Shown here: positions 19,145 through 30,873 of the stretch, piece after piece
Layout of the letters: every line of letters starts with the position of its first letter
Position numbering within the stretch: the stretch's first letter is position 1
NCBI GenBank assembly: GCA_003139095.1
Contig: PLHW01000030.1
Location: 64,602-110,158 of the forward strand
Source: Acidobacteriaceae bacterium
GTDB lineage: Bacteria; Acidobacteriota; Terriglobia; Terriglobales; Acidobacteriaceae
Length of the DNA: 45,557 bases
Reading direction: 5' to 3'
Position numbers and translations under genes: made by a program
The notes under the pieces: model-generated
The model's database searches: none
What the model was told of the DNA's origin: nothing
Seen by the model: only the letters and a program-made list of their open reading frames with translations

Positions 19145-20050
19145 TTAAGGCTTCAGCTTGAACACCGTTCCACAACCGTGCTGTTGGCAGACATACCCAC
19201 CTCCGGAAGAGGTTGTGCCATAGAGATTGCCCTGTGCGTCCATGACCAAATTGCCGGGGAACTGCCCGTCCGTTCCCCCAGTGAAGCTGTAGAGCACCTC
19301 TTCGGTGCCGGCAGCGGTTATCTCGTAGACCGTTCCACGGTTGGAAGCGCCTCCTTCTACGGTTGTGCCATAGAGATTGCCTTTATTGTCCAGAACCAAG
19401 CTCAAGGGCCCGGCCCCGTCCGCTCCGCCGGTGAAGCGGTAGAGCACCGTCTCCGTGCCGTTCGGATCCAGCTTAAACACGGTCCCACAGCCAGGAAAAA
19501 CGCCCTTCGAGCAGAGGGAACCGCCGCCGCCTTCCAACGTTGTGCCATAGAGATTGCCTTTCGTATCCATGAACAAGACGCCATCGGGGATATCGCCATC
19601 CACGGTCTGTTTGAAGAGGTAGCGCCACTTCGCCTTGGCTTGGTTCGTTAGTTCAAAAACCGCACCATAAGGACCTTTCGGCGTGCCGATCGTTGTGCCA
19701 TAGAGATTGCCTTTCGTGTCCCAAATCAAACCGGGACTGGCACCGCTCTTCGCGCCGGCGGGGAAGCTATAAATCACCGTCTCGGTTCCGTTTGGAGTCA
19801 GCTTGAACAGCGTCCCGCAGCCGAGCTTGCACCGGCCAGCGCCGCCAGACTGGGTCGTGCCATAAACGTCGCCTTGTGCATCCAGGACTATTCCATCCGA
19901 TGGGGTACCTCCGTCAAATCCACCCGTGAAGCCGTAGAGCGTTGTGAACGTTTGCGCCTGCGCCTTTTGAGCGGCGACAAGCATCCCCAGAATTGCCACC
20001 AGCAGCAAACCGCGAACAGCGCGTTTCAAGAGAGTGTGCGCGTAGGTCAT
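19145..20050 (-). CDS. Secreted GloVer tandem-repeat protein, second copy
   Basis: This 301-aa paralogue of the 3813-5069 protein is exported with unknown function. The ATG at 20050 is chosen for AAGGAGA about 6 nt upstream and the signal peptide that follows (LLKRAVRGLLLVAILGMLVA, cleavage after QAQA near residue 33). Five units carry the YGTT motif, with FKL..NGTETVIYSF-type strands between them. It is shorter than the first copy by two repeat units. A hairpin terminator lies downstream and a 386-bp region upstream separates it from the eqolisin-like gene on the same strand. It is likely a monocistronic surface or secreted protein. Confidence 0.85.
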   Translation of the reverse strand: MTYAHTLLKRAVRGLLLVAILGMLVAAQKAQAQTFTTLYGFTGGFDGGTPSDGIVLDAQGDVYGTTQSGGAGRCKLGCGTLFKLTPNGTETVIYSFPAGAKSGASPGLIWDTKGNLYGTTIGTPKGPYGAVFELTNQAKAKWRYLFKQTVDGDIPDGVLFMDTKGNLYGTTLEGGGGSLCSKGVFPGCGTVFKLDPNGTETVLYRFTGGADGAGPLSLVLDNKGNLYGTTVEGGASNRGTVYEITAAGTEEVLYSFTGGTDGQFPGNLVMDAQGNLYGTTSSGGGYVCQQHGCGTVFKLKP

Positions 20051-20436
20051 TGCGTTCTCCTTTTTGAGGAACGAAGATTCCACTTGCAAAGCATGAGATG
20101 TTGGGTGCTCTGGCCTCAAAGGGTGTGCATCTCGATGAACGGGAAGCGCTCTTCGAAGAGGCAAGAAGATCAAGGACACGTATGCCACTGCCTTGCAATT
20201 CCCGTCAGTGAGATGAGTCACAAGGCATCTGTGACGTGAAGTCAGTGGCTCGCGGCTTGCTGGCGATAAAATCGCGATTACAGGCATTGACCTCGCGACC
20301 GGGGTTTTGGTGTGATCGCCCGCTAGCGGCGACGATGAAGATCACGAATTAAGGTTCGGGGCTTCCGCGTCTCTTGTTCACAGGCGGTGGGAAGCGGCGG
20401 GCATGTGGTGCCCGCCGTCCGAGTTCTGTTGTGAGG
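20051..20436. other. Intergenic region between two minus-strand secreted-protein genes
   Basis: I see no gene. It must contain the promoter of the second GloVer gene. Hairpins are GTCACA/TGTGAC with a 7-nt spacer (20217-20235), of unknown role, and a 9-bp stem at 20395-20417 listed separately. Confidence 0.45.
20395..20417 (-). terminator. Strong hairpin downstream of the eqolisin-like gene
   Basis: A 9-bp perfect stem CGGCGGGCA / TGCCCGCCG with a 5-nt loop lies 20 bp past the stop codon of the 20437-21399 gene. No T-tract follows, so it may be a terminator, an RNA 3' stabiliser or a palindromic repeat. Confidence 0.4.
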
Positions 20437-21399
20437 CTAATAGTTAAGGATCGCGGTGGTAGCCGTCGTCGTCGTGGAATAGTTGCACCAGGGTGATGTG
20501 CTGCCCTGCTGCACCCAATACATGGGAGTCCACGCCGGATTTTTGATTTTCTTGTAGTTATAGTCGAATAAAGCGACCTTGCTGAATTCGATGGAGCCAT
20601 CCGGCGGAAAGTCGCTGCACTGGTAAATGCTGTAAACCTCCAGCACACCGGATTGCGCCCAGTTGAAGGTTTGTCCTTCGCTGGGAGTGTTTTTCAAGAT
20701 TGTCTTTTTCCCCGTCGTCACGTCCTTGGTCGTGATATTCCAGGTCGAACAGGACGGGTTTCCAGCCTTGCAAGTGCCCTTAATCAGACCCTGGATTTCG
20801 TCGCCGGGACTCACCGTCACAGGCGTGCTGTAGTTTGCCGTGCCGCTCGGGCAGCAGTTCCAACTGGCAATATTCCACGGCCCCACGCCGGACTGTCCAT
20901 CATTCCACCCCAACACGGGCTGGATAATGAGCTGAACGTTGTCGATGTCCTCAAAGCCGGGGAAGAAGAACAAGGTCTGACCATCATTCGTCGTCGGCGT
21001 CGGTGGGACGGTCCAGACGGCTTTGACCTCGCCGTAGGAAGTACTGCTCGTGGAAACCTGACCGGCTTCAATCCAGTCCCAGCTTATATAGAGGGGCCCG
21101 GGATTTACCAAACGTTCAACTACAGGCTCTCCCGATGGCGTATAGCGCGGGAAATTACAAAACGGAACGTTGGCCTCTTCCGTTCCATTCTCAAATTGAA
21201 TGCGCCCATCTCCCAGCAGGGTCTCTCCTTCCTTGATTTCCCGGACACACGAAGGATGAAAGTAGCCGAAGGGTGTGATCACATAGTCGGAGGGCACGCT
21301 GGCTGGGCGAGTCGGCCCCGCGGCCATCTGCGCGCACATCATTCCCACCGACATCAGCAGAACGAACATAGTGCAGAAAGTCCATTTTCCCGGATTCAT
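20437..21399 (-). CDS. Secreted eqolisin/lectin-fold-like protein (function unknown)
   Basis: This is a 320-aa exported protein. The ATG at 21399 has TAGGAG about 8 nt upstream and opens a signal peptide (MNPGKWTFCTMFVLLMSVGM, cleavage near MCAQ). The body from about residue 105 (YGEVKAVWTVPP, LFFFPGFED, QLIIQPVLGWN, WNIASWNCC, VSPGDEIQGLI) has the strand order and motifs of a beta-sandwich seen in G1 (eqolisin) glutamic peptidases and their non-peptidase relatives. The usual catalytic Gln and Glu cannot be assigned with confidence. Six to eight cysteines suggest disulfides. It is a predicted secreted peptidase or glycan-binding protein; the family assignment is tentative. Confidence 0.65.
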   Translation of the reverse strand: MNPGKWTFCTMFVLLMSVGMMCAQMAAGPTRPASVPSDYVITPFGYFHPSCVREIKEGETLLGDGRIQFENGTEEANVPFCNFPRYTPSGEPVVERLVNPGPLYISWDWIEAGQVSTSSTSYGEVKAVWTVPPTPTTNDGQTLFFFPGFEDIDNVQLIIQPVLGWNDGQSGVGPWNIASWNCCPSGTANYSTPVTVSPGDEIQGLIKGTCKAGNPSCSTWNITTKDVTTGKKTILKNTPSEGQTFNWAQSGVLEVYSIYQCSDFPPDGSIEFSKVALFDYNYKKIKNPAWTPMYWVQQGSTSPWCNYSTTTTATTAILNY

Positions 21400-21874
21400 T
21401 CTTTGGCTCCTAGTTTTTGCGATTTGAACAATCAAAAGACATTCTCCATCTTGCAACCAGCGAGCGCGTCCCCGCTCCACGAGAGGAAACATTCCTAAAA
21501 GAGAAGTACGGGGTGCTCGCCTCAGGGGGGCGAGTCTCAGGGGGCGGGAACTGCTCCTCGGAGAGGTGAAAGAATTCTCCGGTCAAAATTGTAGCGCAGC
21601 TCGACGGCGGCGGCGAAGAAAAAGGCCGTGATTGGCGTCGCCGTCTCCGACCCAGACTAGTAGCCGAGAGGAGATTTTAAGTTCAATCGCGAATCATGTG
21701 TGTACGACATTGCAGATGTCTTCAGGGTTCTTTGACGCTGTCGCCATTAGGCCAACTTCAATGGGTTACGAAACCGGCCTGGAAATCGCCTTGGAACCGA
21801 GTGTCGGATCACATCGGCTTGTGCGGTGTCTGCTCGACGGTACAGTGTCGGCTCCGATAGTCTATTGAGTCTTC
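21400..21874. other. Divergent intergenic region before the HD-fold gene
   Basis: This 475-bp region separates divergent genes and should hold promoters for both. A 6-bp hairpin CTCGCC/GGCGAG lies at 21516-21534. An open frame with a TTG start (21632-21868, 78 codons) ends 6 nt before the next gene; it has no Shine-Dalgarno and no recognisable family, so it is not called. Confidence 0.4.
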
Positions 21875-22453
21875 ATGGAACAGCTTTTTGGAGGTCCTTG
21901 GATGCGCGAGGCCGTGGAACACTTGTGGCCGGAGATTGCGTGGATTGGCGATGTGAAGCTGCGCGAGCAGGTGACGCAGACCTGGATCAAGGCGCTGGAG
22001 CGGAGTCCGCTGAAGGCGGAGGATTTGAACCGGATTCCGTTTACGCTGCTGGTGCCGAATTGCCCGATCACGTTTATGGAGCACAAGCGCTGCGTGGTGC
22101 ACATTGCGCGCGAGAGCGCGAAGGCGATGACGGTGTTTATGGGACGCGCGCTGCCGATTGATGAGGACGTGGTGATTGCGGGGGCGATTCTCGCGGATGT
22201 CGGCAAGTTGCTGGAGTACGAGATTGGCGCGGACGGCAAGAGCAAGCAGAGCGAGCGCGGAGAAGCGTTGCGACATCCGTTTACCGGAGTTGCGCTGGCG
22301 CTGGAATGCGGCGTGCCTGACGCGGTCTGCCACATTATTGCGGCGCACGCGGCAGAGGGCGATCTGGTGAAGCGCACGACGGAGGCGTACATCGTGCACC
22401 ATGCGGATTTTATGGCCTACTTGCCATTTAAGAATGCGAAGAACTTGCGGTGA
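21875..22453 (+). CDS. HD-fold phosphohydrolase-like protein with degenerate HD motif
   Basis: This 192-aa cytoplasmic protein resembles small HD-domain metal-dependent phosphohydrolases. The helical core is visible: EHKRCVVHIARES, then the position of the HD doublet as AGAILADVGKLLEYE, then HPFTGVALALECGV, HIIAAHAAEGD and IVHHADFM. The canonical HDxGK reads ADVGK, so the metal-binding His is replaced by Ala while Asp is kept. The other histidines are present. The Shine-Dalgarno is weak (TTGAGT); the ATG at 21875 is the only start matching the domain. It is the first gene on the plus strand before the PrpD/homoaconitase/citrate-lyase cluster and may be cotranscribed across the 192-bp repeat-rich gap. 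Activity is doubtful; a binding role is possible. Confidence 0.75.
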   Translation: MEQLFGGPWMREAVEHLWPEIAWIGDVKLREQVTQTWIKALERSPLKAEDLNRIPFTLLVPNCPITFMEHKRCVVHIARESAKAMTVFMGRALPIDEDVVIAGAILADVGKLLEYEIGADGKSKQSERGEALRHPFTGVALALECGVPDAVCHIIAAHAAEGDLVKRTTEAYIVHHADFMAYLPFKNAKNLR

Positions 22454-22645: not shown

Positions 22646-24076
22646 TTGGCTACACAGATGGGTGCTCCGAAAGAAACGATTACGGCGAAGATGGCACAGT
22701 TTGCGGCGGGCCTGACGTACGAGCAGCTTTCGCAGGAAGCGGTGTATCAGGCGAAACGGTTTCTGCTCGACTCCGTCGGATGCGCGCTGGGCGGATACCA
22801 GCAGCATGATGTGGTGATCGCGCTCGGAGTGCTGAACGAGATCGCCGGACGCGGAACGTCGACGGTGATTGGAACGGGTAAGAAGATGGATCCGGTGTCG
22901 GCGTCGCTGGCGAATGCGCTGATGATTCGCTGCATGGATTACAACGACATTTACTGGAAGCAGGACCCGTCGCATCCGTCGGACATTTTTCCGGCAGCGA
23001 TGGCGTGCTGCGAGCGGATGAAAGCCGATGGGAAAGAGTTGATTGTGGGATTCGTGCTGGGGCACGAGTTCGAGATGCGGCTGTGCGAGGCGGCGTTTCC
23101 GGGGATTCGCGAGCGCGGATGGCACCATGCGACGCTGACGGCGTTCGCGTCTCCGATTGTGGCGGGACGCGCGCTGCGGCTGAACTGGGAGCAGATTCAG
23201 CATGCGATTGGAATTTCGGCGTCGCGGCATTGCACGCTGGGCGCGGTGACGGCGGGCAAGCTGACGATGATGAAGAATACGGTCGATCCGATGGCGACGC
23301 AGAGCGGCGTGCTGGCGGCGCTGCTGGCGGAGAAGGGATACACGGGGCCGGAGCACGTGATCGACGGGAAAGAAGGACTGGCGCACTGTTTCGGGCCGGA
23401 ATGGAAGCTGAATTTGCTGACGGATGGCCTCGGCGAGTCGTGGCGGATTACACAATGCGGGATGAAGTTTTTTCCGACGGAGGCATTGACACATGCGCCG
23501 ATTTCGGCGGTGCTGGATCTGGTGAAAGAAAACGATCTGCACCCGGAGAGCGTAGAGAAAATACAAATACGGTCGCTGGCCCGCGCGGCGGATATTTTGT
23601 CCGATCCGAGCAAGTACGATCCCCATACGAAAGAGACGGCGGACCACTCGCTGCCATATGTGATTGCGGCGGCGCTGGTGGAGCGGCAGGTGACGCCGGC
23701 GCAGTTCGAGATGAAGAAGATCATGGACCCGACGATTCGGGCGCAGCTGAAGAAGGTGGAGGTGGTGGCGGACCCGGAGATTGAGAGAGTTTTTCCGGCG
23801 CTGCAACGGGTGATCGTGAATATTACGACGACGGATGGGCGGACGTTCTCAAAGCAACTGGACTATCCGAAGGGCGATCCGCGGAATCCACTGACGGACG
23901 CGGAGATTGAAGAGAAGTTCCGGGCGCTGGCGGAGGGCGTGCTGACCAAGAAGGCGCAGGACAAGTTGATTGCGGCGATCTGGAGGCTGGAGAAGTGCGC
24001 GTCGGTTTCGAAGCTGATGAGGATGATGAGGGGGGATGAGGAATTGCAGAGGTCAGAGGTCAGAGTGCAGAAGTAA
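22646..24076 (+). CDS. MmgE/PrpD family protein (2-methylcitrate dehydratase-like)
   Basis: This 476-aa enzyme belongs to the MmgE/PrpD superfamily, whose members dehydrate 2-methylcitrate or citrate-like acids or decarboxylate cis-aconitate. It is helical in the N-terminal two thirds (FLLDSVGCALGG, NALMIRCMDYNDIYW, RGWHHATLTAF, LAALLAEKGYTGPEHV), with the small C-terminal domain after about residue 290. The start is TTG at 22646, decided by AAAAGGAGA 5 nt upstream; no better ATG precedes the domain. The last ten codons (LQRSEVRVQK) come from a heptamer repeat at 24048-24075, so its tail is repeat-derived. The nearby homoaconitase, dehydrogenase and citrate lyase suggest the substrate is citrate, homocitrate or an alkylcitrate; this is inference. 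Confidence 0.88.
   Translation: MATQMGAPKETITAKMAQFAAGLTYEQLSQEAVYQAKRFLLDSVGCALGGYQQHDVVIALGVLNEIAGRGTSTVIGTGKKMDPVSASLANALMIRCMDYNDIYWKQDPSHPSDIFPAAMACCERMKADGKELIVGFVLGHEFEMRLCEAAFPGIRERGWHHATLTAFASPIVAGRALRLNWEQIQHAIGISASRHCTLGAVTAGKLTMMKNTVDPMATQSGVLAALLAEKGYTGPEHVIDGKEGLAHCFGPEWKLNLLTDGLGESWRITQCGMKFFPTEALTHAPISAVLDLVKENDLHPESVEKIQIRSLARAADILSDPSKYDPHTKETADHSLPYVIAAALVERQVTPAQFEMKKIMDPTIRAQLKKVEVVADPEIERVFPALQRVIVNITTTDGRTFSKQLDYPKGDPRNPLTDAEIEEKFRALAEGVLTKKAQDKLIAAIWRLEKCASVSKLMRMMRGDEELQRSEVRVQK
24048..24075. repeat. Heptamer repeat at the end of the MmgE/PrpD gene
   Basis: AGAGGTC, AGAGGTC, AGAGTGC and AGAAGTA run in tandem and include the stop codon region. Almost the same string (AGATTGC, AGAAGTA) occurs at 4-17 of the window. 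Confidence 0.6.
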
Positions 24077-24152
24077 GACCTTGGGTTCTTTTGCACGTGA
24101 GTTTTGAAGTTTTGAAGACATTTTCTAGATCGCGGCAGCGAACAAAAGCTTG

Positions 24153-24179
24153 AACCACAGGGGACACAGGGAACACGGG
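24153..24179. repeat. Nonamer repeat before the DinB gene
   Basis: ACCACAGGG, GACACAGGG and AACACGGGG are three 9-nt units of the NNCRCAGRG type, also seen at 22527, 26641, 27991 and 30874. Confidence 0.6.
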
Positions 24180-24196
24180 GGCTTCAACTGAAGAGA

Positions 24197-24664
24197 ATGG
24201 CTGATCTGAATGAGACAGTGACGGATAGTCTGGCTGCCCGGTACTTGAAGCTGGCGGGGGTGGTGCGGGAATTGGCGGGGCCTTTGAGCGACGAGCAGTT
24301 TTGGGCTAAGCCGTTTGCGTTCGGGAACAGTTTTGGGCATCTGGTGCTGCACTTGACGGGAAATTTGAACTACTACATCGGGGCGCGGCTTGCGGATACG
24401 GGGTATGTGAGGGATCGTCCGCGGGAGTTTACCGAGGCGGCGCCGCCGGCGAAGACGGAGGTGCTGAAGAAATTTGATGAGGCGGTGGAAATAGTGGTTC
24501 GGACGATGCGGAGCCAGTCGGCGGAGGATTGGACGCGAGAGTATTCGGCCACGGGAGCGGATGCGAAGACGCGGTTCGATATGGTGCTGCAATGCGCTAC
24601 CCACTTGCACCATCATGTTGGGCAGATGATGTACCTGGCATTCGAGTTAACGCGGAGCGCCTGA
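24197..24664 (+). CDS. DinB-family protein
   Basis: This 155-aa four-helix-bundle protein is of the DinB/DUF664-type superfamily, which includes metal-dependent thiol transferases and stress-induced proteins. The putative metal ligands are in the usual places: the first His pair in GHLVLHLTGNLNYY and a C-terminal HLHHHVGQMMYL. It is cytoplasmic. The ATG at 24197 has GAAGAGA directly upstream. The next gene starts 15 bp after its stop, so it is transcribed with the homoaconitase; whether it acts in the same pathway (for example in thiol or radical protection of an Fe-S enzyme) is unknown. Confidence 0.85.
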   Translation: MADLNETVTDSLAARYLKLAGVVRELAGPLSDEQFWAKPFAFGNSFGHLVLHLTGNLNYYIGARLADTGYVRDRPREFTEAAPPAKTEVLKKFDEAVEIVVRTMRSQSAEDWTREYSATGADAKTRFDMVLQCATHLHHHVGQMMYLAFELTRSA

Positions 24665-24679
24665 GAGAAGGTAGAGGCT

Positions 24680-26641
24680 ATGGGTCAGACCATCGTTGAG
24701 AAAATCGCGCAATCGCATATGGCGGAGGGACCGAATCGTCCGCTGCGTGCGGGGGACTTTTTGTCGATACGGCCGCACCGATGCATGACGCACGACAACA
24801 CTTCTGCGGTGATGAGCAAGTTCAAAGGGATTGGCGCGAAGAAGCTGAAAGACGCGCGGCAGATGGTGTTTGCGCTCGACCATGACATTCAGAATCAGGA
24901 TGAGGCGAACCTGAAGAAGTATCGGGCGATTGAAGCGTTTGCCAAAGAACAGGGAGTGGATTTTTATCCGGCGGGCTCGGGGATTGGGCACCAGATCATG
25001 GTGGAGCGCGGGTATGTGGTGCCGGGATCGTTTGTGGTGGCGTCGGATTCGCACTCAAATATGTATGGCGCACTGGGGGCGATCGGGACGCCGATTGTGC
25101 GGACGGATGCGGCGGCGGTGTGGGCGACGGGCGAATTCTGGTGGCAAATTCCGCGCTCGATTCAGGTGGTGCTGGAGGGAAGGCTGGCGGCGGGCGCGAC
25201 GGGCAAGGACGTCATTATTACGCTGTGCGGGCTGTATAACCACGATGAGTGCCTGAATGCGGCGGTGGAGTTTACGGGACCGGGAGTGGCGGCGCTCTCG
25301 ATGGATGCACGGCTTTCGATTTCGAACATGACGACGGAGTGGGGACCGCTGGTGGGGTGGTTTCCGGTGGACGCGACAACGATTGGGTACATGCGCGGAG
25401 TGCGGGAGCGGCTGAAGGCGCTGGGCGTGGAGCGGTTCGCGGAGAAGGATATTGAGGAGTGGGCGGAGAGGTCGCCGGCTCCGGATGCGGACGCGGCGTA
25501 TTCGGCGCGCATCGTGCTCGATCTTGCCGAGGTCACGCCTCACGTTTCGGGGCCGGATACGGTGCAGACGATGCAATCGGTGGCAGAGATCGAGGGGAAG
25601 AAGGTTCGGATTCAGAAAGCGTATTTAGTGTCGTGCGTAAATTCGCGGGTGGAAGATCTGGAGGCGGCGGCCGCGGTGCTTCGCGGAAAGAAGGTGGCGG
25701 CGGGCGTGAAGTTCTATCTGGGCGCGGCGAGCAAGTGGGTGCAGGAGGAGGCGGAGAAACGCGGCGTGTGGAAGACGCTGATGGATGCGGGTGCGAACCC
25801 GCTGCCGCCGGGATGCGGGCCGTGTATTGGGCTGGGCGTCGGTCTGCTGGAAGCTGGAGAGGTGGGGATTTCGGCGACAAACCGGAATTTTAAAGGGCGG
25901 ATGGGATCGCGGGACGCGAAGTGTTACCTGGCGAGCCCGGAGGTGGTGGCGGCGTCGGCGGTGGCGGGATTTATTTGCACGCCGGAATCAGCGGACGCAA
26001 CGCCCAGGGGCGGGGGCGTTCGCGCCACACGGCGTTACACGGAGTTGGCGGCGGGGGCTGGCGCGGCGGAGAAGGTGGAGATACTGGCGGGATTTCCGCA
26101 GCGCGTAACGGGGCGCCTGGTGTTTATGCCACAGGACAATGTGAACACGGACGCGATTTACGGGAAGGATTATACGTATCGCGACGACATGACGCCGGAG
26201 ATGATGGCGAAGGTGGTGATGGAGAACTACGATCCGACGTTTGCGTCGCGGACGCGGGCGGGAGATGTGATTGTGGGCCAATTTAATTTTGGGACGGGAT
26301 CGAGCCGGGAGCAGGCGGTGACGTGCCTGAAGGCGAAGGGAATTCCGCTGGTGATTGCGGCGAGTTTTTCGCAGACGTATTTGCGCAATGCGTTTAATAA
26401 CGGATTTTTGTGCATCGAGGTGCCAGAGTTGGTGGCGCGGCTGCGCGAGCAGTTTGGGGAGGAGATTGCGGCGAAGGAGAAGACGATTATTGCGGGAGAT
26501 GAAATTGATATCGATTTCACCTCGAGCGCGATCTCGTGGCGCGGCCAGACGTTTAACTTCCCAGCTCTAGGCAGTGTGCCGCAGTCGCTGGTGATTGCGG
26601 GGGGAGTGGAGAATCTGGTGGCGAAGCGGTTGGCGATTTAA
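24680..26641 (+). CDS. Fused homoaconitase-like hydratase (LYS4 type)
   Basis: This 653-aa aconitase-superfamily enzyme has the large and swivel (small) domains in one chain. The [4Fe-4S] ligands are visible: Cys319 (LVSCVNSR), Cys379 and Cys382 (GCGPC). Signature stretches THDNTSAV, DSHSNMYG, RTDAAAVWATGEFWWQIP, SNMTTEWG, GISATNRNFKGRMG and FGTGSSREQAV resemble, from memory, the single-chain homoaconitase of fungi (LYS4) more closely than aconitase A/B or the two-subunit LeuCD. It would interconvert cis-homoaconitate or a similar acid with its 2-hydroxy isomer. The domain linker (about residues 435-452) carries a palindromic repeat read in frame (25991-26030). The start ATG follows GAAGGTAGAGG by a few nt. 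Exact substrate is unproven. Confidence 0.9.
   Translation: MGQTIVEKIAQSHMAEGPNRPLRAGDFLSIRPHRCMTHDNTSAVMSKFKGIGAKKLKDARQMVFALDHDIQNQDEANLKKYRAIEAFAKEQGVDFYPAGSGIGHQIMVERGYVVPGSFVVASDSHSNMYGALGAIGTPIVRTDAAAVWATGEFWWQIPRSIQVVLEGRLAAGATGKDVIITLCGLYNHDECLNAAVEFTGPGVAALSMDARLSISNMTTEWGPLVGWFPVDATTIGYMRGVRERLKALGVERFAEKDIEEWAERSPAPDADAAYSARIVLDLAEVTPHVSGPDTVQTMQSVAEIEGKKVRIQKAYLVSCVNSRVEDLEAAAAVLRGKKVAAGVKFYLGAASKWVQEEAEKRGVWKTLMDAGANPLPPGCGPCIGLGVGLLEAGEVGISATNRNFKGRMGSRDAKCYLASPEVVAASAVAGFICTPESADATPRGGGVRATRRYTELAAGAGAAEKVEILAGFPQRVTGRLVFMPQDNVNTDAIYGKDYTYRDDMTPEMMAKVVMENYDPTFASRTRAGDVIVGQFNFGTGSSREQAVTCLKAKGIPLVIAASFSQTYLRNAFNNGFLCIEVPELVARLREQFGEEIAAKEKTIIAGDEIDIDFTSSAISWRGQTFNFPALGSVPQSLVIAGGVENLVAKRLAI
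25991..26030. repeat. Short palindromic repeat, family A copy 3 (inside homoaconitase gene)
   Basis: AACGCCC (25999-26005) pairs with GGGCGTT (26014-26020), and the tail GCGCCACAC is identical to that of the 12940 copy. It is read in frame as the linker between the enzyme's large and swivel domains. Confidence 0.5.
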
Positions 26642-26753
26642 ACGCAGAGATCGCAGAGGACGCAGAGAGAATGCAGGGATCCTTCGACTCCGCTCAGGAC
26701 GACAGAAGTTTAGTAACTATTATTTACCCTGCGAACTCGGCGGCCTCTGCGAT
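26641..26753. repeat. Repeat cluster: nonamers, dispersed palindromic tract and inverted partner
   Basis: Nonamers AACGCAGAG, ATCGCAGAG and GACGCAGAG run 26641-26667. A tract of the dispersed type GATCCTTCGACTC..CTCAGGACGACA follows at 26678-26704. ATCGCAGAGG (26650-26659) is inverted as CCTCTGCGAT (26744-26753), so the gap can fold on itself just before the strong ribosome-binding site of the next gene. Confidence 0.6.
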
Positions 26754-26785
26754 TAAGAGTTTTTAATTTTTGTAAGGAGCGATTA

Positions 26786-27979
26786 ATGGCGAAATATACG
26801 GTTATTACTATGCCCGGAGACGGCATCGGGAATCAGGTCTTGCCGGAGTCGTTGCGCGTTTTGAAAGCGGTCGGCTTTAATGCTGAGTATATTCATGCGG
26901 ACATTGGGTGGGATTGCTGGTGCGCGCAGGGGAATGCGCTGCCGGAGCGGACAATTGAACTGCTGACGAAACACAAGCTCGGGCTGTTTGGCGCGATCAC
27001 TTCGAAGCCGAACAAGGCGGCGCAGGCGGAGTTGAAGCCGGAGTTGCAGGGCAAGGGCTACGTCTACTACTCGCCGATTGTGACGATGCGGCAGAGGTTC
27101 AATCTGGATATCTGCATGCGGCCGTGCGTGGGGTTTACGGGGAATCCGCTGAACTACATTCGCAAGAGGGCGGGAGACGCGCCTGGATTTGACGAGCCGA
27201 AGATCGATACGACGGTGTTCCGGCAGGGGACGGAGGGCATGTACGCGGGGGTGGAGTGGACGAATCCTCCGGAGAATGTGCGGGCGGCGCTGAATTCGCA
27301 TCCGCGATTCAAGGCGTTTGCCAATGTGCCGGGGCCGGAACTGGCGGTGAGTTGCCGCATTATCACGCGCAATGCGGCGCGGCGCATCTGCACGGCGGCG
27401 TTTGAGTATGCGAAGAAACGCGGATTCAATGGCGTAACGATCTGCGAGAAGCCGAACGTGGTGCGCGAGACCTCGGGAATGATGGAGGAAGTGGCGAAGG
27501 AAGTGGCGAAAAATTATGCGGGGATCGCGCTGTGGTCGACGAATATTGACGCGCAGTTGATGTGGCTGAATAAGAATCCGGAAGAGTACAACGTGATTGT
27601 GGCGTCGAATTTGTTTGGCGACATTTTGTCAGACGCGTTCGCGGGGCTGGTAGGGGGGCTGGGGTTTGCAGCTTCGGGAAACATTGGCGACGAGGTGGCA
27701 GTGTTTGAGCCGACACATGGATCGGCGCCGAAATATGCGGAACTGGATCCGCCGATCGTGAATCCGATTGCGATGATCTTGTCGGCGGCGATGATGCTGG
27801 ACCACGTGAACGAAGGGCAGAAAGCGGAGCGGATTCGCAAGGCGATTGCGGACGTGGTGAGCGAAGGGAAAGTGCGGACCTACGACATGATGCGAATTGC
27901 GGGCGGAGCGAAGTCGATTGGGCAGGGTGCGGCGTCGACGATGCAGATGACGGACGCGATTCTGGAGAAGCTGAAATAG
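26786..27979 (+). CDS. Isocitrate/isopropylmalate dehydrogenase family protein (ICDH/homoisocitrate DH-like)
   Basis: This 397-aa NAD(P)-dependent beta-decarboxylating dehydrogenase oxidises and decarboxylates a 2-hydroxy-3-carboxy acid. Family motifs are MPGDGIGNQV, FGAITSKP, RQRFNLDICMRPC, FRQGTEGMYAGVEW, the metal-binding SNLFGDILSD, and the cofactor-site EPTHGSAPKYA. The substrate loop before RQRFNLD reads YYSPIVTM, lacking the Asn that E. coli isocitrate dehydrogenase has next to its substrate Ser, so isocitrate is not assured. The start ATG has AAGGAG 8 nt upstream. It sits between the homoaconitase and citrate-lyase genes, consistent with acting on the hydratase product. NAD versus NADP preference is not assignable by eye. 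Confidence 0.88.
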   Translation: MAKYTVITMPGDGIGNQVLPESLRVLKAVGFNAEYIHADIGWDCWCAQGNALPERTIELLTKHKLGLFGAITSKPNKAAQAELKPELQGKGYVYYSPIVTMRQRFNLDICMRPCVGFTGNPLNYIRKRAGDAPGFDEPKIDTTVFRQGTEGMYAGVEWTNPPENVRAALNSHPRFKAFANVPGPELAVSCRIITRNAARRICTAAFEYAKKRGFNGVTICEKPNVVRETSGMMEEVAKEVAKNYAGIALWSTNIDAQLMWLNKNPEEYNVIVASNLFGDILSDAFAGLVGGLGFAASGNIGDEVAVFEPTHGSAPKYAELDPPIVNPIAMILSAAMMLDHVNEGQKAERIRKAIADVVSEGKVRTYDMMRIAGGAKSIGQGAASTMQMTDAILEKLK

Positions 27980-27990
27980 AAGATTGGCTC

Positions 27991-28015
27991 ACCACAGAGA
28001 CACGGAGGCGCAGGG
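27991..28015. repeat. Nonamer repeat between dehydrogenase and CitDE genes
   Basis: ACCACAGAG, ACACGGAGG and CGCAGGG are degenerate 9-nt units of the cluster's nonamer family. Confidence 0.5.
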
Positions 28016-28077
28016 AAAACAAAATAATGCTCTGTCGCTTTTTGATTCTGCTGTGAAAGAGTGCCTGGTGAATAGCT

Positions 28078-29289
28078 ATGAGCAGCGTTGAAGTGAGGGC
28101 GGCGAATTGCGGTGAGGCGGGGCATTGGGGCAAGGACGTGCGCTCCGATTTGCATGTGGCGTTTGAGTCGCGGGAGAGAGGCGGGGTGGAAATCTCGCTG
28201 GAGTCGCGAGTGGCGCCGTACTACGGGAGCGCGATTCTGGAGCAGACGCGGCAGGTGCTGGCGGGGATTGGGATCAAGCACGGGCGGGTCGTGATTCACG
28301 ATGAGGGCGCATTGCCATTCACGATCGGCGCGCGGATTGAGGCGGCGACGCGGCGCGGCGGAATGGCAGCGGGAAAAAGCTGGCAGGCGGAGGCGCATCC
28401 TTTGCCGCCGGCATCGAGCAAGGAAAGGCTGCGGCGGTCGCGACTCTATCTGCCCGGTTCGGAGCCGAAATATTTTATTAATGCGGCGCTGCACGGCCCG
28501 GACGCGGTCATTCTCGATCTGGAAGATTCGGTACACCGCAGCGAGAAAGATGCGGCGCGCATACTGGTGCGAAACGCGCTACGGGCGGTCGATTTCGGGG
28601 CATGCGAGCGGATGGTGCGGATCAACCAGTTGCCGCTCGGACTGGAAGATCTGGCGGAGGTGGTCGGGGAGAGTCCTGATTTGATTTTGATTCCGAAAGT
28701 GGAACGGGCGGAGCAGGTGGTGGAGGCGGACCGCGCGATCGGCGAGATCAAAGCGCGCAATGGAAACAAGCGGGCGGTGTGGATCATGCCGATTCTGGAA
28801 TCGGCGCTGGGAATTGAGAATGCGTTTGCGATTGCATCGGCGAGCGAGAACGTGGCGGCGCTGACGATTGGGCTGGAGGATTACACGGCGGACCTCGGCG
28901 TGGTGAAAACGACGGAGGGGCGGGAGTCGCAGTATGCGCGGGCGCGCGTGGTGAATGCGGCGCGGGCGGCGGGCGTGCAGGCGATCGATTCGGTGTTTGG
29001 CGACGTGGGCGATATGGAAGGGCTGCGGCGGTGGGGCGAGGCGTCGCGTGCGATGGGATTTGAAGGGATGGGATGCATTCATCCGGGACAGATTCGGGTG
29101 ATCCACGAGGCGTTTCGGCCGACAGGGGCGGAGATTCAAAAGGCGCAGCGGATTGTGGCGGCCTTTGAAGAGGCACAGAGCAAAGGGCTGGCGGTGGTGA
29201 GCCTTGGATCGAAGATGATCGATCCGCCGGTAGTGCTGCGGGCGTTGAAGCTGGTCGAGCGGGCGAAAGCCATGGGAGCGATTCTGTGA
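28078..29289 (+). CDS. CitD-CitE fusion: citrate lyase acyl-carrier and beta subunit
   Basis: This is a 403-aa fusion. Residues 1-100 match the CitD acyl-carrier (GGVEISLESRVAPYYGSAI, VVIHDEGALPFTIGARIEAA); a Ser23-Asp24 lies near where the phosphoribosyl-dephospho-CoA is attached in CitD. Residues of about 115-403 are CitE, the HpcH/HpaI-type citryl/acyl-CoA lyase (LYLPGSEPKYF, DAVILDLEDSV, TIGLEDY, IHPGQI, SLGSKMIDPPV). Together with CitF it would cleave citrate or a homologue to acetate plus an oxo-acid. In Klebsiella these subunits are separate genes. The start Shine-Dalgarno is weak. The gene overlaps citF by four bases (GTGA). No citC, citX or citG is in the window, so prosthetic-group supply must come from elsewhere. 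Confidence 0.88.
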   Translation: MSSVEVRAANCGEAGHWGKDVRSDLHVAFESRERGGVEISLESRVAPYYGSAILEQTRQVLAGIGIKHGRVVIHDEGALPFTIGARIEAATRRGGMAAGKSWQAEAHPLPPASSKERLRRSRLYLPGSEPKYFINAALHGPDAVILDLEDSVHRSEKDAARILVRNALRAVDFGACERMVRINQLPLGLEDLAEVVGESPDLILIPKVERAEQVVEADRAIGEIKARNGNKRAVWIMPILESALGIENAFAIASASENVAALTIGLEDYTADLGVVKTTEGRESQYARARVVNAARAAGVQAIDSVFGDVGDMEGLRRWGEASRAMGFEGMGCIHPGQIRVIHEAFRPTGAEIQKAQRIVAAFEEAQSKGLAVVSLGSKMIDPPVVLRALKLVERAKAMGAIL

Positions 29290-30848
29290 CGGAGCGGGTG
29301 GAGTTCGCGCAAAATGCATTGGGCCGCACGGTGCCGATGATGGTGAATGGGAGGCCGCAGATTCCATTCCTCGGTGTGGGGAAATTTCAGCCGCGCGGGC
29401 GGAAGGCGGCACCGCCGATTTCTTCGAGCAAAGATTATCCGGAGAACGGCGACAAGCGGGTCGCGGACCTGGAGACGGCACTGCGGAAGTGCGGATTGCG
29501 CGATGGGATGGTGATTTCAAACCACCATCACCTGCGCGACGGCGACAAAGTGGCACTGCTGGCGCTGGAGGCGGCGGCGAAGATCGGCGTAAAAGATCTG
29601 ATGTGGTTTCCGAGCGCGTCGTTTCCGTCGCAGCAGGGCGCGATTGAATTGATGGAAAAGGGCGTGATCCATCACATTGAAGGCTCGATGAACGGGCCGC
29701 TGGGCGATTACTGCACGCAGGGAAAGATGCGCGGCATGGGCGTGTTGCGGTCGCATGGCGGGCGCTACCAGGCTATCCAGGATGGAGAGGTGCACGTCGA
29801 TATTGCGGTGATTGCTGCGCCGACGGCGGATTTTTTTGGCAATGCGGATGGTTCGCATGGGAAGTCGGCGTGCGGGTCGCTCGGTTTTGCGTTGGCAGAT
29901 TCGATGTATGCGGATCGCGTGATCGTGGTGACGGACAATCTGATTCCGTTTCCCTGCGTGCCGTGGCAGATTCAGGGAAACAATGTGGACTACGTGGTGG
30001 AGGTGGAGTCGATCGGCGATCCGGCGAAGATTGTTTCGGGCACAACACAGATTACGCGCTCGCCGGACCGGCTGCGGATCGCGGAGCTGGTGGCAAGCTT
30101 TCTGCGCGCGGCCGGGATCATGAAGAACGGATTTTCGTTTCAGGCGGGAGCGGGGGGAATCGCGCTGGCGTTTGTGCAGTACCTGAAACAGATGATGAAA
30201 GAGGATGGCGTGAAAGCGCGCTTTGTGCGCGGCGGATCGACAAAATTTCTGGTTGAGCTGCTGAAGGAAGGGCTGACGGACTACATTCTGGACGGGCAGA
30301 CGTTTGACCTGGATGGAGTGAAATCGATGGCGGACGACCCGCGGCATGTGGCGACGTCGCCGTTCACGTCGTACAACTATGATGGGAAGGGAAATTTTGC
30401 GTCACTGGTGGATGCGGTGGTGCTGGGTGCGACCGAGGTCGATGTCAACTTTAATGCGAATGTGGTGACGCATTCGGACGGGCGACTGCTGCACGGAATT
30501 GGCGGGTGGCAGAACTGTTTGTTTGCGGGGTGCTCAATTCTGGCGGTGCCGTCGTTTCGCGATCGCATTCCGGTGATTGTGGATGAAGTGACGACGATGA
30601 CCGGGCCGGGCGAGATGATTGACGTGATCGTAACGGAGCGCGGGATTGCGATCAATCCGCGGCGGACGGATTTGCTGGACGCGGTAAAGGGGACGAAGTT
30701 ACCGGTGCGGCCGATCCAGGAGATGAAGGCGGAGATCGAGAAGATTTGCGGCGGGAAGCCGGCGCGTCCGAAACTGGGGGAGAAGGCGTGCGCGGTAGTG
30801 AAGTGGGTGGACGGGACGGTGCTGGACACGGTGTGGCAGGTGGGGTGA
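29286..30848 (+). CDS. citF: Citrate lyase alpha subunit-like (CitF)
   Basis: This 520-aa CoA-transferase-fold subunit of citrate lyase exchanges acetyl on the acyl-carrier for the incoming acid. Recognised stretches are SNHHHLRDGDKVALLALEAAAKIG, in two parts, then GSMNGPLGDYC, SHGGRYQAIQDGEVHVD, GKSACGSLGFALADSMYAD, NNVDYVVEVESIGDP, GGSTKFLVELLKEGL, VDVNFNANVVTHSDG and VDEVTTMTGPGEMIDV. The length is normal for CitF. The GTG start overlaps the CitDE stop as GTGA, so the two are translationally coupled. A hairpin with a T-run follows the stop, probably ending the transcript. Specificity for citrate rather than a homologue (citramalate, homocitrate) is not shown by sequence. Confidence 0.88.
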   Translation: MTERVEFAQNALGRTVPMMVNGRPQIPFLGVGKFQPRGRKAAPPISSSKDYPENGDKRVADLETALRKCGLRDGMVISNHHHLRDGDKVALLALEAAAKIGVKDLMWFPSASFPSQQGAIELMEKGVIHHIEGSMNGPLGDYCTQGKMRGMGVLRSHGGRYQAIQDGEVHVDIAVIAAPTADFFGNADGSHGKSACGSLGFALADSMYADRVIVVTDNLIPFPCVPWQIQGNNVDYVVEVESIGDPAKIVSGTTQITRSPDRLRIAELVASFLRAAGIMKNGFSFQAGAGGIALAFVQYLKQMMKEDGVKARFVRGGSTKFLVELLKEGLTDYILDGQTFDLDGVKSMADDPRHVATSPFTSYNYDGKGNFASLVDAVVLGATEVDVNFNANVVTHSDGRLLHGIGGWQNCLFAGCSILAVPSFRDRIPVIVDEVTTMTGPGEMIDVIVTERGIAINPRRTDLLDAVKGTKLPVRPIQEMKAEIEKICGGKPARPKLGEKACAVVKWVDGTVLDTVWQVG

Positions 30849-30850
30849 GG

Positions 30851-30873
30851 GCCCGAGCGGGGCGGGCATTTTT
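30851..30873 (+). terminator. Terminator after citF
   Basis: GCCCG (30851-30855) pairs with CGGGC (30863-30867), loop 7 nt, followed by ATTTTT. It lies 2 bp past the citF stop and marks the likely end of the cluster's transcript. Confidence 0.55.

Follow-up and report, generated by a model that had tools for sequence, protein, structure and literature searches.

A conserved six-gene block of Acidobacteriota and other phyla with a citrate-lyase-like enzyme that very probably lacks the covalent cofactor

This study concerns a stretch of 45,557 nucleotides from an Acidobacteriaceae bacterium (assembly GCA_003139095.1, contig PLHW01000030.1, positions 64,602 to 110,158 of the forward strand), called the window here, and in it a block of six genes, HD-PrpD-LYS4-ICDH-CitDE-CitF. 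These genes code for an HD-domain protein, a homologue of MmgE/PrpD, a fused LYS4-like homoaconitase, a homologue of isocitrate dehydrogenase (ICDH), a fusion of CitD and CitE (CitDE) and a CitF. The strongest new fact about the block is that its citrate-lyase-like enzyme, CitDE/CitF, seems to be stripped of its cofactor. We propose, with a probability of roughly 0.48, that the six genes form an operon for a CoA-dependent, reversible, four-step lengthening or shortening of keto acids, most likely in the homocitrate series, with a lyase that would use free CoA.

Protein families were assigned by Pfam searches and by the curated equivalog cut-offs of NCBIfam, for the LYS4-like protein over the best 25 of its 26 matching NCBIfam families. 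The block lies on the plus strand and begins with the HD-domain gene (21875-22453; 192 amino acids (aa)). There follow the genes for the MmgE/PrpD-family protein, a proposed dehydratase (22646-24076; Pfam MmgE_PrpD_N and MmgE_PrpD_C, 247 and 168 bits), for the fused LYS4-like homoaconitase, a proposed hydratase (24680-26641; Pfam Aconitase, 359 bits, and Aconitase_C, 62 bits), for the ICDH-family dehydrogenase with a Lys-Tyr NADP signature (26786-27979; Pfam Iso_dh, 247 bits), for CitDE (28078-29289; PF06857 (MdcD/CitD), 57 bits, residues 23-93, and HpcH_HpaI, 186 bits, residues 120-336) and for CitF, the CoA/acyl-transferase subunit (29286-30848; Pfam CitF, 435 bits), which overlaps CitDE by 4 bases. 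An earlier note on this DNA had described PrpD, DinB, the fused homoaconitase, the ICDH homologue, CitDE and CitF as collinear on the plus strand, and the list of open reading frames (ORFs) and the strong Pfam matches bear this out. That note had let the block start at PrpD and had thereby omitted its true first gene, that of the HD protein. It had also counted in the gene for the DinB-superfamily protein (24197-24664, plus strand; Pfam DinB_2, 56 bits), which is a passenger because it is present in only 10 of the 80 related loci described below. The note was right that the ORF list and Pfam give no synthase, CitC, CitX or CitG within the block, and CitG and CitX were not found elsewhere in the genome either; CitC was searched for in the block and not genome-wide. 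As to the terminator at which the genes were said to end, a GC hairpin with a T tail behind it does stand just 3' of the CitF stop (30851-30867, plus strand) and is plausible in this role, but it is a consensus match only and such sites are barely above chance in the region (11 against 7.8 ± 2.6 expected).

The clustering of these genes is far beyond chance. Of 396 genomes of the phylum, 60 have a CitF above the Pfam cut-off, and flanking stretches were taken around 40 CitF genes. PrpD, LYS4, ICDH, CitDE and CitF were in the same order at 13 of these 40 loci, in two of which the contig breaks off within an end gene; other loci were cut shorter. Clustering of ORFs showed that at 15 of the 40 the block is immediately preceded by a gene of about 190 aa, the same as the HD gene of the window. 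For a survey across phyla, GTDB species genomes were scanned with an LYS4 alignment and the best 80 of 541 confirmed loci were taken. All six genes are present in 45 of these 80. At least 3 kb upstream and at least 5 kb downstream of LYS4 are available in 46 of the loci and fall short in the other 34, and in 39 of the 46 all six genes lie on one strand, which is the opposite of the rare co-occurrence that the earlier note had allowed for. The seven exceptions are L104, L109, L138, L146, L151, L163, and L164; L104 is a rearranged block in which HD-PrpD is on the opposite strand, about 5 kb from LYS4-ICDH-CitDE-CitF. The median intergenic gaps in 44 loci are 14, 14.5, 27.5, 20.5, and -4 bases, which are approximate because the starts were set mechanically.

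By their titles, the hosts of the best 80 of 541 loci are mostly Acidobacteriota, followed by Gemmatimonadota, with one or two loci each from Latescibacterota, Krumholzibacteriota, Deltaproteobacteria, Bacteroidetes, and Chloroflexi; nearly all 80 loci are from metagenome bins, some of which may be mistitled, and the Chloroflexi contig is not long enough to show the block. A tree of LYS4 made by a quick method splits mainly into an Acidobacteriota side and a Gemmatimonadota side with some mixing, and the window sits in it among Acidobacteriota loci titled Acidobacteriaceae and Terriglobia. We make no claim of transfer between phyla because long branches meet in this tree. In 30 distant loci, each neighbour family other than those of the six genes was found at 4 loci at most; the one family with this count has a protein that resembles a spurious frame, and the neighbours thus give no clue to the substrate. 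These surveys support the view that the block is one co-inherited module.

Co-occurrence in the 396 genomes points the same way. The variant CitF is present in 48 genomes, the ICDH clade of the block type in 43, and LYS4 in 29. Variant CitF and the ICDH clade occur together in 35 genomes against 5.2 expected, variant CitF and LYS4 in 21 against 3.5, and the ICDH clade and LYS4 in 24 against 3.1, with Fisher p-values below 1e-14 that are overstated because the genomes are related. Genomes with a canonical-type CitF (G193, G097, G292) or a divergent one (G154, G194, G093, G262, G012) were left out of this count; partial ICDH matches in G255 and G032 were scored as present, and the matches in G071 (58%, partial) and G119 (55%) as absent.

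A second type of block was found at L049, L070, and L071, and partly at L050, in the order HD, a fused aconitase-family protein of about 600 aa, a HacA-type large subunit, a HacB-type small subunit, CitDE, CitF. Here PrpD and the fused LYS4 are replaced by other aconitase-family enzymes, of the homoaconitate/isopropylmalate kind, and ICDH, HD, CitDE, and CitF are kept. The large subunit of L071 scores 514.5 bits against the hacA-family cut-off of 385.7 and the small subunit 169.2 against the LEUD_arch cut-off of 108.95. An end portion of ICDH lies upstream of the block at L049; at L217 ICDH, HD, the fused enzyme, HacA, HacB, and CitDE form one run up to the contig end; and at L220 ICDH adjoins HacA/HacB-type genes. 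In five genomes of family f46 (G078, G144, G207, G294, G380) LYS4, ICDH, and CitF are in the same genome and are not adjacent. The second block type therefore shows that the roles of dehydratase, hydratase, ICDH, lyase, and HD protein recur, the first two with different proteins. This bears on the idea that the enzymes act on unrelated substrates and are held together by shared regulation only. Such an idea would account for the fact that all the enzymes but one score under the curated equivalog cut-offs, but several phyla have the same six genes without any further neighbour that is widely shared, and the two middle enzymes are swapped for matching types in the second block, and we regard it as highly improbable.

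In the textbook view, citrate lyase depends on a dedicated CoA derivative that is attached to it covalently. The CitF of the window scores 481.4 bits against the citF equivalog cut-off of 501.45, the CitE and CitD homologues are also under their NCBIfam equivalog cut-offs, and identity to the E. coli proteins is 38% for CitF, 37% for CitE, and 24% for CitD. The E. coli CitD gene has Ser14, which we take to be the attachment site of the prosthetic group, whereas the CitDE of the window has Arg22 (28141-28143) at that position. In an alignment of 80 CitDE rows, from which frames of 330 aa or less were left out, the position is Arg in 78 rows, one of which (L063) is a misread canonical locus and is not to be counted, and has no residue in the other two. 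The stand-alone CitD of L062 retains Ser. The residue that follows the position is mostly Ser, but two rows have Ala and one has Gly there, so it is no fixed substitute. CitG and CitX were searched for in 32 of the 60 genomes above the CitF cut-off, with G292 not included. Both were found in the same two genomes, G193 and G097, directly downstream of a canonical-type CitF 40-42% identical to that of the window, and neither was found in the other 30, which include the genome of the window. In some of these 30 genomes (for example, G002, G124, G154, and G262) no CitDE was seen beside CitF, so that the serine is not covered there; in G124 the CitF (L065) is 56% identical to that of the window and lies between a UPF0102 gene and a gene for a YchF-type GTPase, with no CitDE found nearby.

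Since the attachment serine, CitG, and CitX are all missing, the covalent prosthetic group is very probably absent from CitDE, and the Arg at the attachment site together with the missing CitG and CitX rules out an ordinary citrate lyase. We infer that free CoA replaces the covalent group. The predicted fold of the CitE part is that of a lyase closest to enzymes using free CoA esters: the closest solved structures for CitDE are malyl-CoA lyase and human CLYBL, while for CitF they are two CitF structures, and the relatives of CitE include (S)-citramalyl-CoA lyases, although CitDE is under the RipC cut-off (161.1 against 375). The closeness to lyases of free CoA esters is weak evidence because no true CitE structure was known as of 2013, according to PMC3832036.

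The PrpD homologue has both MmgE/PrpD Pfam domains and scores 73.6 bits against the cut-off of 458 of TIGR02330, the model for 2-methylcitrate dehydratase PrpD, so the cut-off is far from reached. At each of 19 positions with an acidic or basic residue or His, 95% or more of 54 block copies (frames of 440-520 aa) match E. coli PrpD; some of these residues are presumably catalytic. The homologue is the single PrpD-family match in the genome of the window. Neither PrpC nor PrpB is beside it in the block; citrate-synthase-family genes exist elsewhere in the genome, and PrpB was not searched for genome-wide. The product of a 2-methylcitrate route, 2-methylisocitrate, is a tertiary alcohol that an ICDH cannot oxidise. 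The LYS4-like protein passes one equivalog cut-off only, that of homoaconitase TIGR00139 (750.6 bits against 529.9), its nearest solved relatives are homoaconitase and isopropylmalate-isomerase large subunits, and we propose that it would be a homoaconitase-type hydratase. The nearest solved relatives of the PrpD homologue are IDS-epimerase and cis-aconitate decarboxylases. The latter include those of the IRG1 type, which together with the (S)-citramalyl-CoA lyases among the CitE relatives would fit a route of C5 acids, in which PrpD would be a cis-aconitate decarboxylase giving itaconate and CitDE/CitF a citramalate lyase giving pyruvate and acetate. We consider this route very unlikely, as it leaves ICDH without a role and the second block has in the place of PrpD an aconitase-family enzyme, which would not decarboxylate.

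The nearest solved relative of the ICDH homologue is homoisocitrate dehydrogenase. Its Lys316-Tyr317 is invariant in 12 of 12 and aligns with Lys344/Tyr345 of E. coli Icd, and besides this NADP pair the two enzymes agree at E. coli positions 113 (Ser), 119, 129, 153, 160, 230, 283, 307, and 311. Asn115 of E. coli Icd is Ile in the block ICDH and likewise in a sister subfamily (L178, L179, L180, L185, L189), which is 51-59% identical, has the SPIV substrate-helix motif too, and occurs widely in the phylum. Relative to this sister subfamily, the block ICDH has an insertion of about 12 residues and a Gln for Glu right after Arg153. The sister subfamily is the only Iso_dh found in G216 and in G124, a genome of one contig, and is possibly the isocitrate dehydrogenase of these organisms. 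The residue pattern is common to the block and the sister subfamily and therefore does not decide the substrate.

These residues bear on the citrate series, in which the same four steps would connect oxaloacetate + acetate <-> citrate <-> cis-aconitate <-> isocitrate <-> 2-oxoglutarate + CO2 as a second NADP-linked route beside the TCA (tricarboxylic acid) cycle. The sister ICDH, which matches the block enzyme at E. coli positions 113, 115, 119, 129, 153, and 160, speaks for it, as does the NADP pair shared with E. coli Icd, and PrpD enzymes can take citrate-type acids, as the name of one PrpD model, bifunctional 2-methylcitrate dehydratase/aconitate hydratase, indicates. However, the insertion and the Gln beside Arg153 set the block ICDH apart from its sister, and the hydratases of both block types score as homoaconitase or isopropylmalate enzymes and not as aconitase. 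Moreover, the genome of the window, a 5.5-Mb draft that is 98% complete, is already supplied with the TCA enzymes. It has Aconitase-domain matches in four genes and five Iso_dh genes, and outside the block are an AcnA (1362 bits against a cut-off of 945), an NADP-ICDH (669 against 567), and an NAD-IDH-like gene that narrowly misses its cut-off (425 against 432), as well as three citrate-synthase-family genes, one above the type I cut-off, one above type II, and one just under type I. Therefore the block is not the TCA set of the genome, and the AcnA and NADP-ICDH remove the earlier note's reservation that it might hold the only TCA aconitase and isocitrate dehydrogenase. On balance the citrate series is somewhat unlikely, although it has to be taken seriously.

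If the homocitrate series that we favour is correct, CitF would attach CoA to a citrate-type acid, and the acyl thioester of this acid would be split, or formed, by the CitE part of CitDE; PrpD would dehydrate the citrate-type acid to an aconitate-type acid; the LYS4-like enzyme would hydrate this to an isocitrate-type acid; and the ICDH homologue would link the latter to the longer keto acid with NADP. The overall reaction would be R-CO-COOH + acetyl <-> R-CH2-CO-COOH + CO2 + NADPH, and in the likeliest series, that of homocitrate, 2-oxoglutarate <-> 2-oxoadipate. The lyase would work with free CoA, its CitD-like domain being without the serine and the genome without the known enzymes that make and attach the prosthetic group. 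Cleavage of the citrate-lyase type is favoured at cellular concentrations, and since a lyase stands here in place of a synthase the likeliest direction would be cleavage, in which the longer keto acid, CO2, and NADPH give the shorter keto acid and acetate. The reaction order, the substrate, the direction, the use of free CoA, and the role of the HD protein are inferred, whereas the conservation of the block and of its residues, the family identities, and the missing serine, CitG, and CitX are observed. Homocitrate is put ahead of citrate, without proof, because of the homoaconitase model, the fungal precedent, the homoaconitate-type enzymes of the second block, and the TCA enzymes elsewhere in the genome. 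Of the tricarboxylic-acid module that the earlier note had suggested, the co-inheritance, the PrpD residues, and the homoaconitase cut-off passed by LYS4 stand, while a reading of CitDE/CitF as an ordinary citrate lyase falls and the homocitrate series is ahead of citrate only by likelihood.

Several points weigh against this proposal. No PrpD-family enzyme is known to act on homocitrate. The ICDH is under every curated NCBIfam cut-off, with AksF models scoring best, and its substrate may be isocitrate because no Iso_dh other than the sister, which shares the SPIV motif, was found in two genomes. The use of free CoA rests on absence, and an unknown attachment system is possible. The variant CitF is without the ICDH clade in 13 of 48 genomes and without LYS4 in 27 of 48, and eight genomes with the ICDH clade and eight with LYS4 are without the variant CitF. 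Of 24 genomes searched for LysW, only 2, which belong to the family of the second block, exceed its cut-off, five, including that of the window, stay below it, and 17 have no match, so that LysW-dependent lysine biosynthesis is no constant partner, and genes of lysine catabolism were not sought. Finally, the analogy with fungi, where the earlier note had hydration and dehydration done by separate enzymes, holds in that purified fungal homoaconitases are inactive on homocitrate and need aconitase, although the authors also allow an equilibrium effect; yet the homoaconitase of M. jannaschii does both half-steps, so two enzymes are not always needed (PMC3556520 for both statements).

We also considered a bolder version, in which 2-oxoadipate would be carboxylated to homoisocitrate, driven by NADPH, and this would be isomerised to homocitrate by PrpD and the LYS4-like enzyme. 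A descendant of citrate lyase that has exchanged the covalent group for free CoA would then cleave homocitrate to 2-oxoglutarate and acetate, its former carrier domain now binding CoA. This would be a new pathway, an aminoadipate pathway run backward to degrade lysine carbon, and at present it is a doubtful one. The genome has three HMGL-like genes, and one of them (L168; G000:C50:320399-321199) codes for a 417-aa HMGL-like protein with a weak match, under the cut-off, to a homocitrate-synthase C-terminal model and no NCBIfam match at E 1e-60. On the contig of the window and outside the window, at G000:C29:9472-9612, there is a weak LysW-like match under the cut-off, as in four other genomes of the same family.

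The HD protein scores 31.5 bits against the cut-off of 27.6 of TIGR00277 (HDIG) and has no Pfam match. Its AlphaFold2 model has an HD fold (pLDDT 88), with YhaM as the only match with E below 0.001. The fold would fit an ordinary phosphohydrolase, but the HD doublet is Ala-Asp, with His replaced by Ala, in 63 of 64 copies from the LYS4 loci (L087-L166) and Ile-Asp in the remaining one (L127), whereas the second-type blocks L049, L070, and L071 keep His-Asp. Because the metal-binding doublet is broken, our guess is that the protein is probably a ligand-binding regulator.

Upstream of the block, on the minus strand, the window has a 351-aa protein without a Pfam match (20440-21492) beside an NLYGTT-type repeat protein with a marginal Pfam match (19148-20287). 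Pfam was also applied to ten genes next to LYS4, ICDH or second-block genes that lie dispersed. Four had no match above the cut-off and six had one, namely, a methyltransferase, Hsp33, a formiminotransferase, a disaccharide-hydrolase fold, a solute-binding protein, and an O-antigen ligase, and they suggest no common pathway.

A subfamily that has no attachment serine and is widespread, in genomes that lack the cofactor genes, would show how such an enzyme escapes from the need for a covalent cofactor. The block is also a testable case of a whole keto-acid route in which PrpD would take the step that aconitase does elsewhere. Its hosts belong to phyla of soil and sediment about whose central metabolism little is known, and the automatic names citrate lyase, homoaconitase, and isocitrate dehydrogenase would misguide metabolic models of these bacteria. 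In the open-licence PMC literature, by titles and the starts of abstracts of the papers listed, we found no description of the block, of a homocitrate lyase or of a reductive carboxylation of 2-oxoadipate.

Four known systems resemble the block in part. The fungal alpha-aminoadipate pathway likewise has two enzymes for the half-steps, a LYS4-type hydratase, and a dehydrogenase of the ICDH family (LYS12) (PMC3556520). The block has instead PrpD for aconitase and a CoA transferase/lyase for homocitrate synthase, and it has an NADP signature and no lysine genes. With the citrate lyase operon citCDEFXG, of which a classical cluster is described for Geobacter in PMC2996986, it shares adjacent homologues of CitD, CitE, and CitF, but its CitD is fused to CitE and has Arg for the serine, CitC is missing from the block, and CitX and CitG are missing from the genome. 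The acyl lyases of free CoA esters, namely, malyl-CoA lyase, CLYBL, and (S)-citramalyl-CoA lyase of the RipC type, have the CitE-type fold and are nearest by solved structure, whereas the CitE of the block is fused to a CitD-like domain, is paired with CitF, and is under the RipC cut-off. The methanogen enzymes AksDE/AksF and HacA/HacB belong to the same homoaconitase and homoisocitrate-dehydrogenase families, and the second block even has HacA/HacB-type subunits; the block of the window, however, has no HMGL-like synthase and has PrpD and CitDE/CitF instead.

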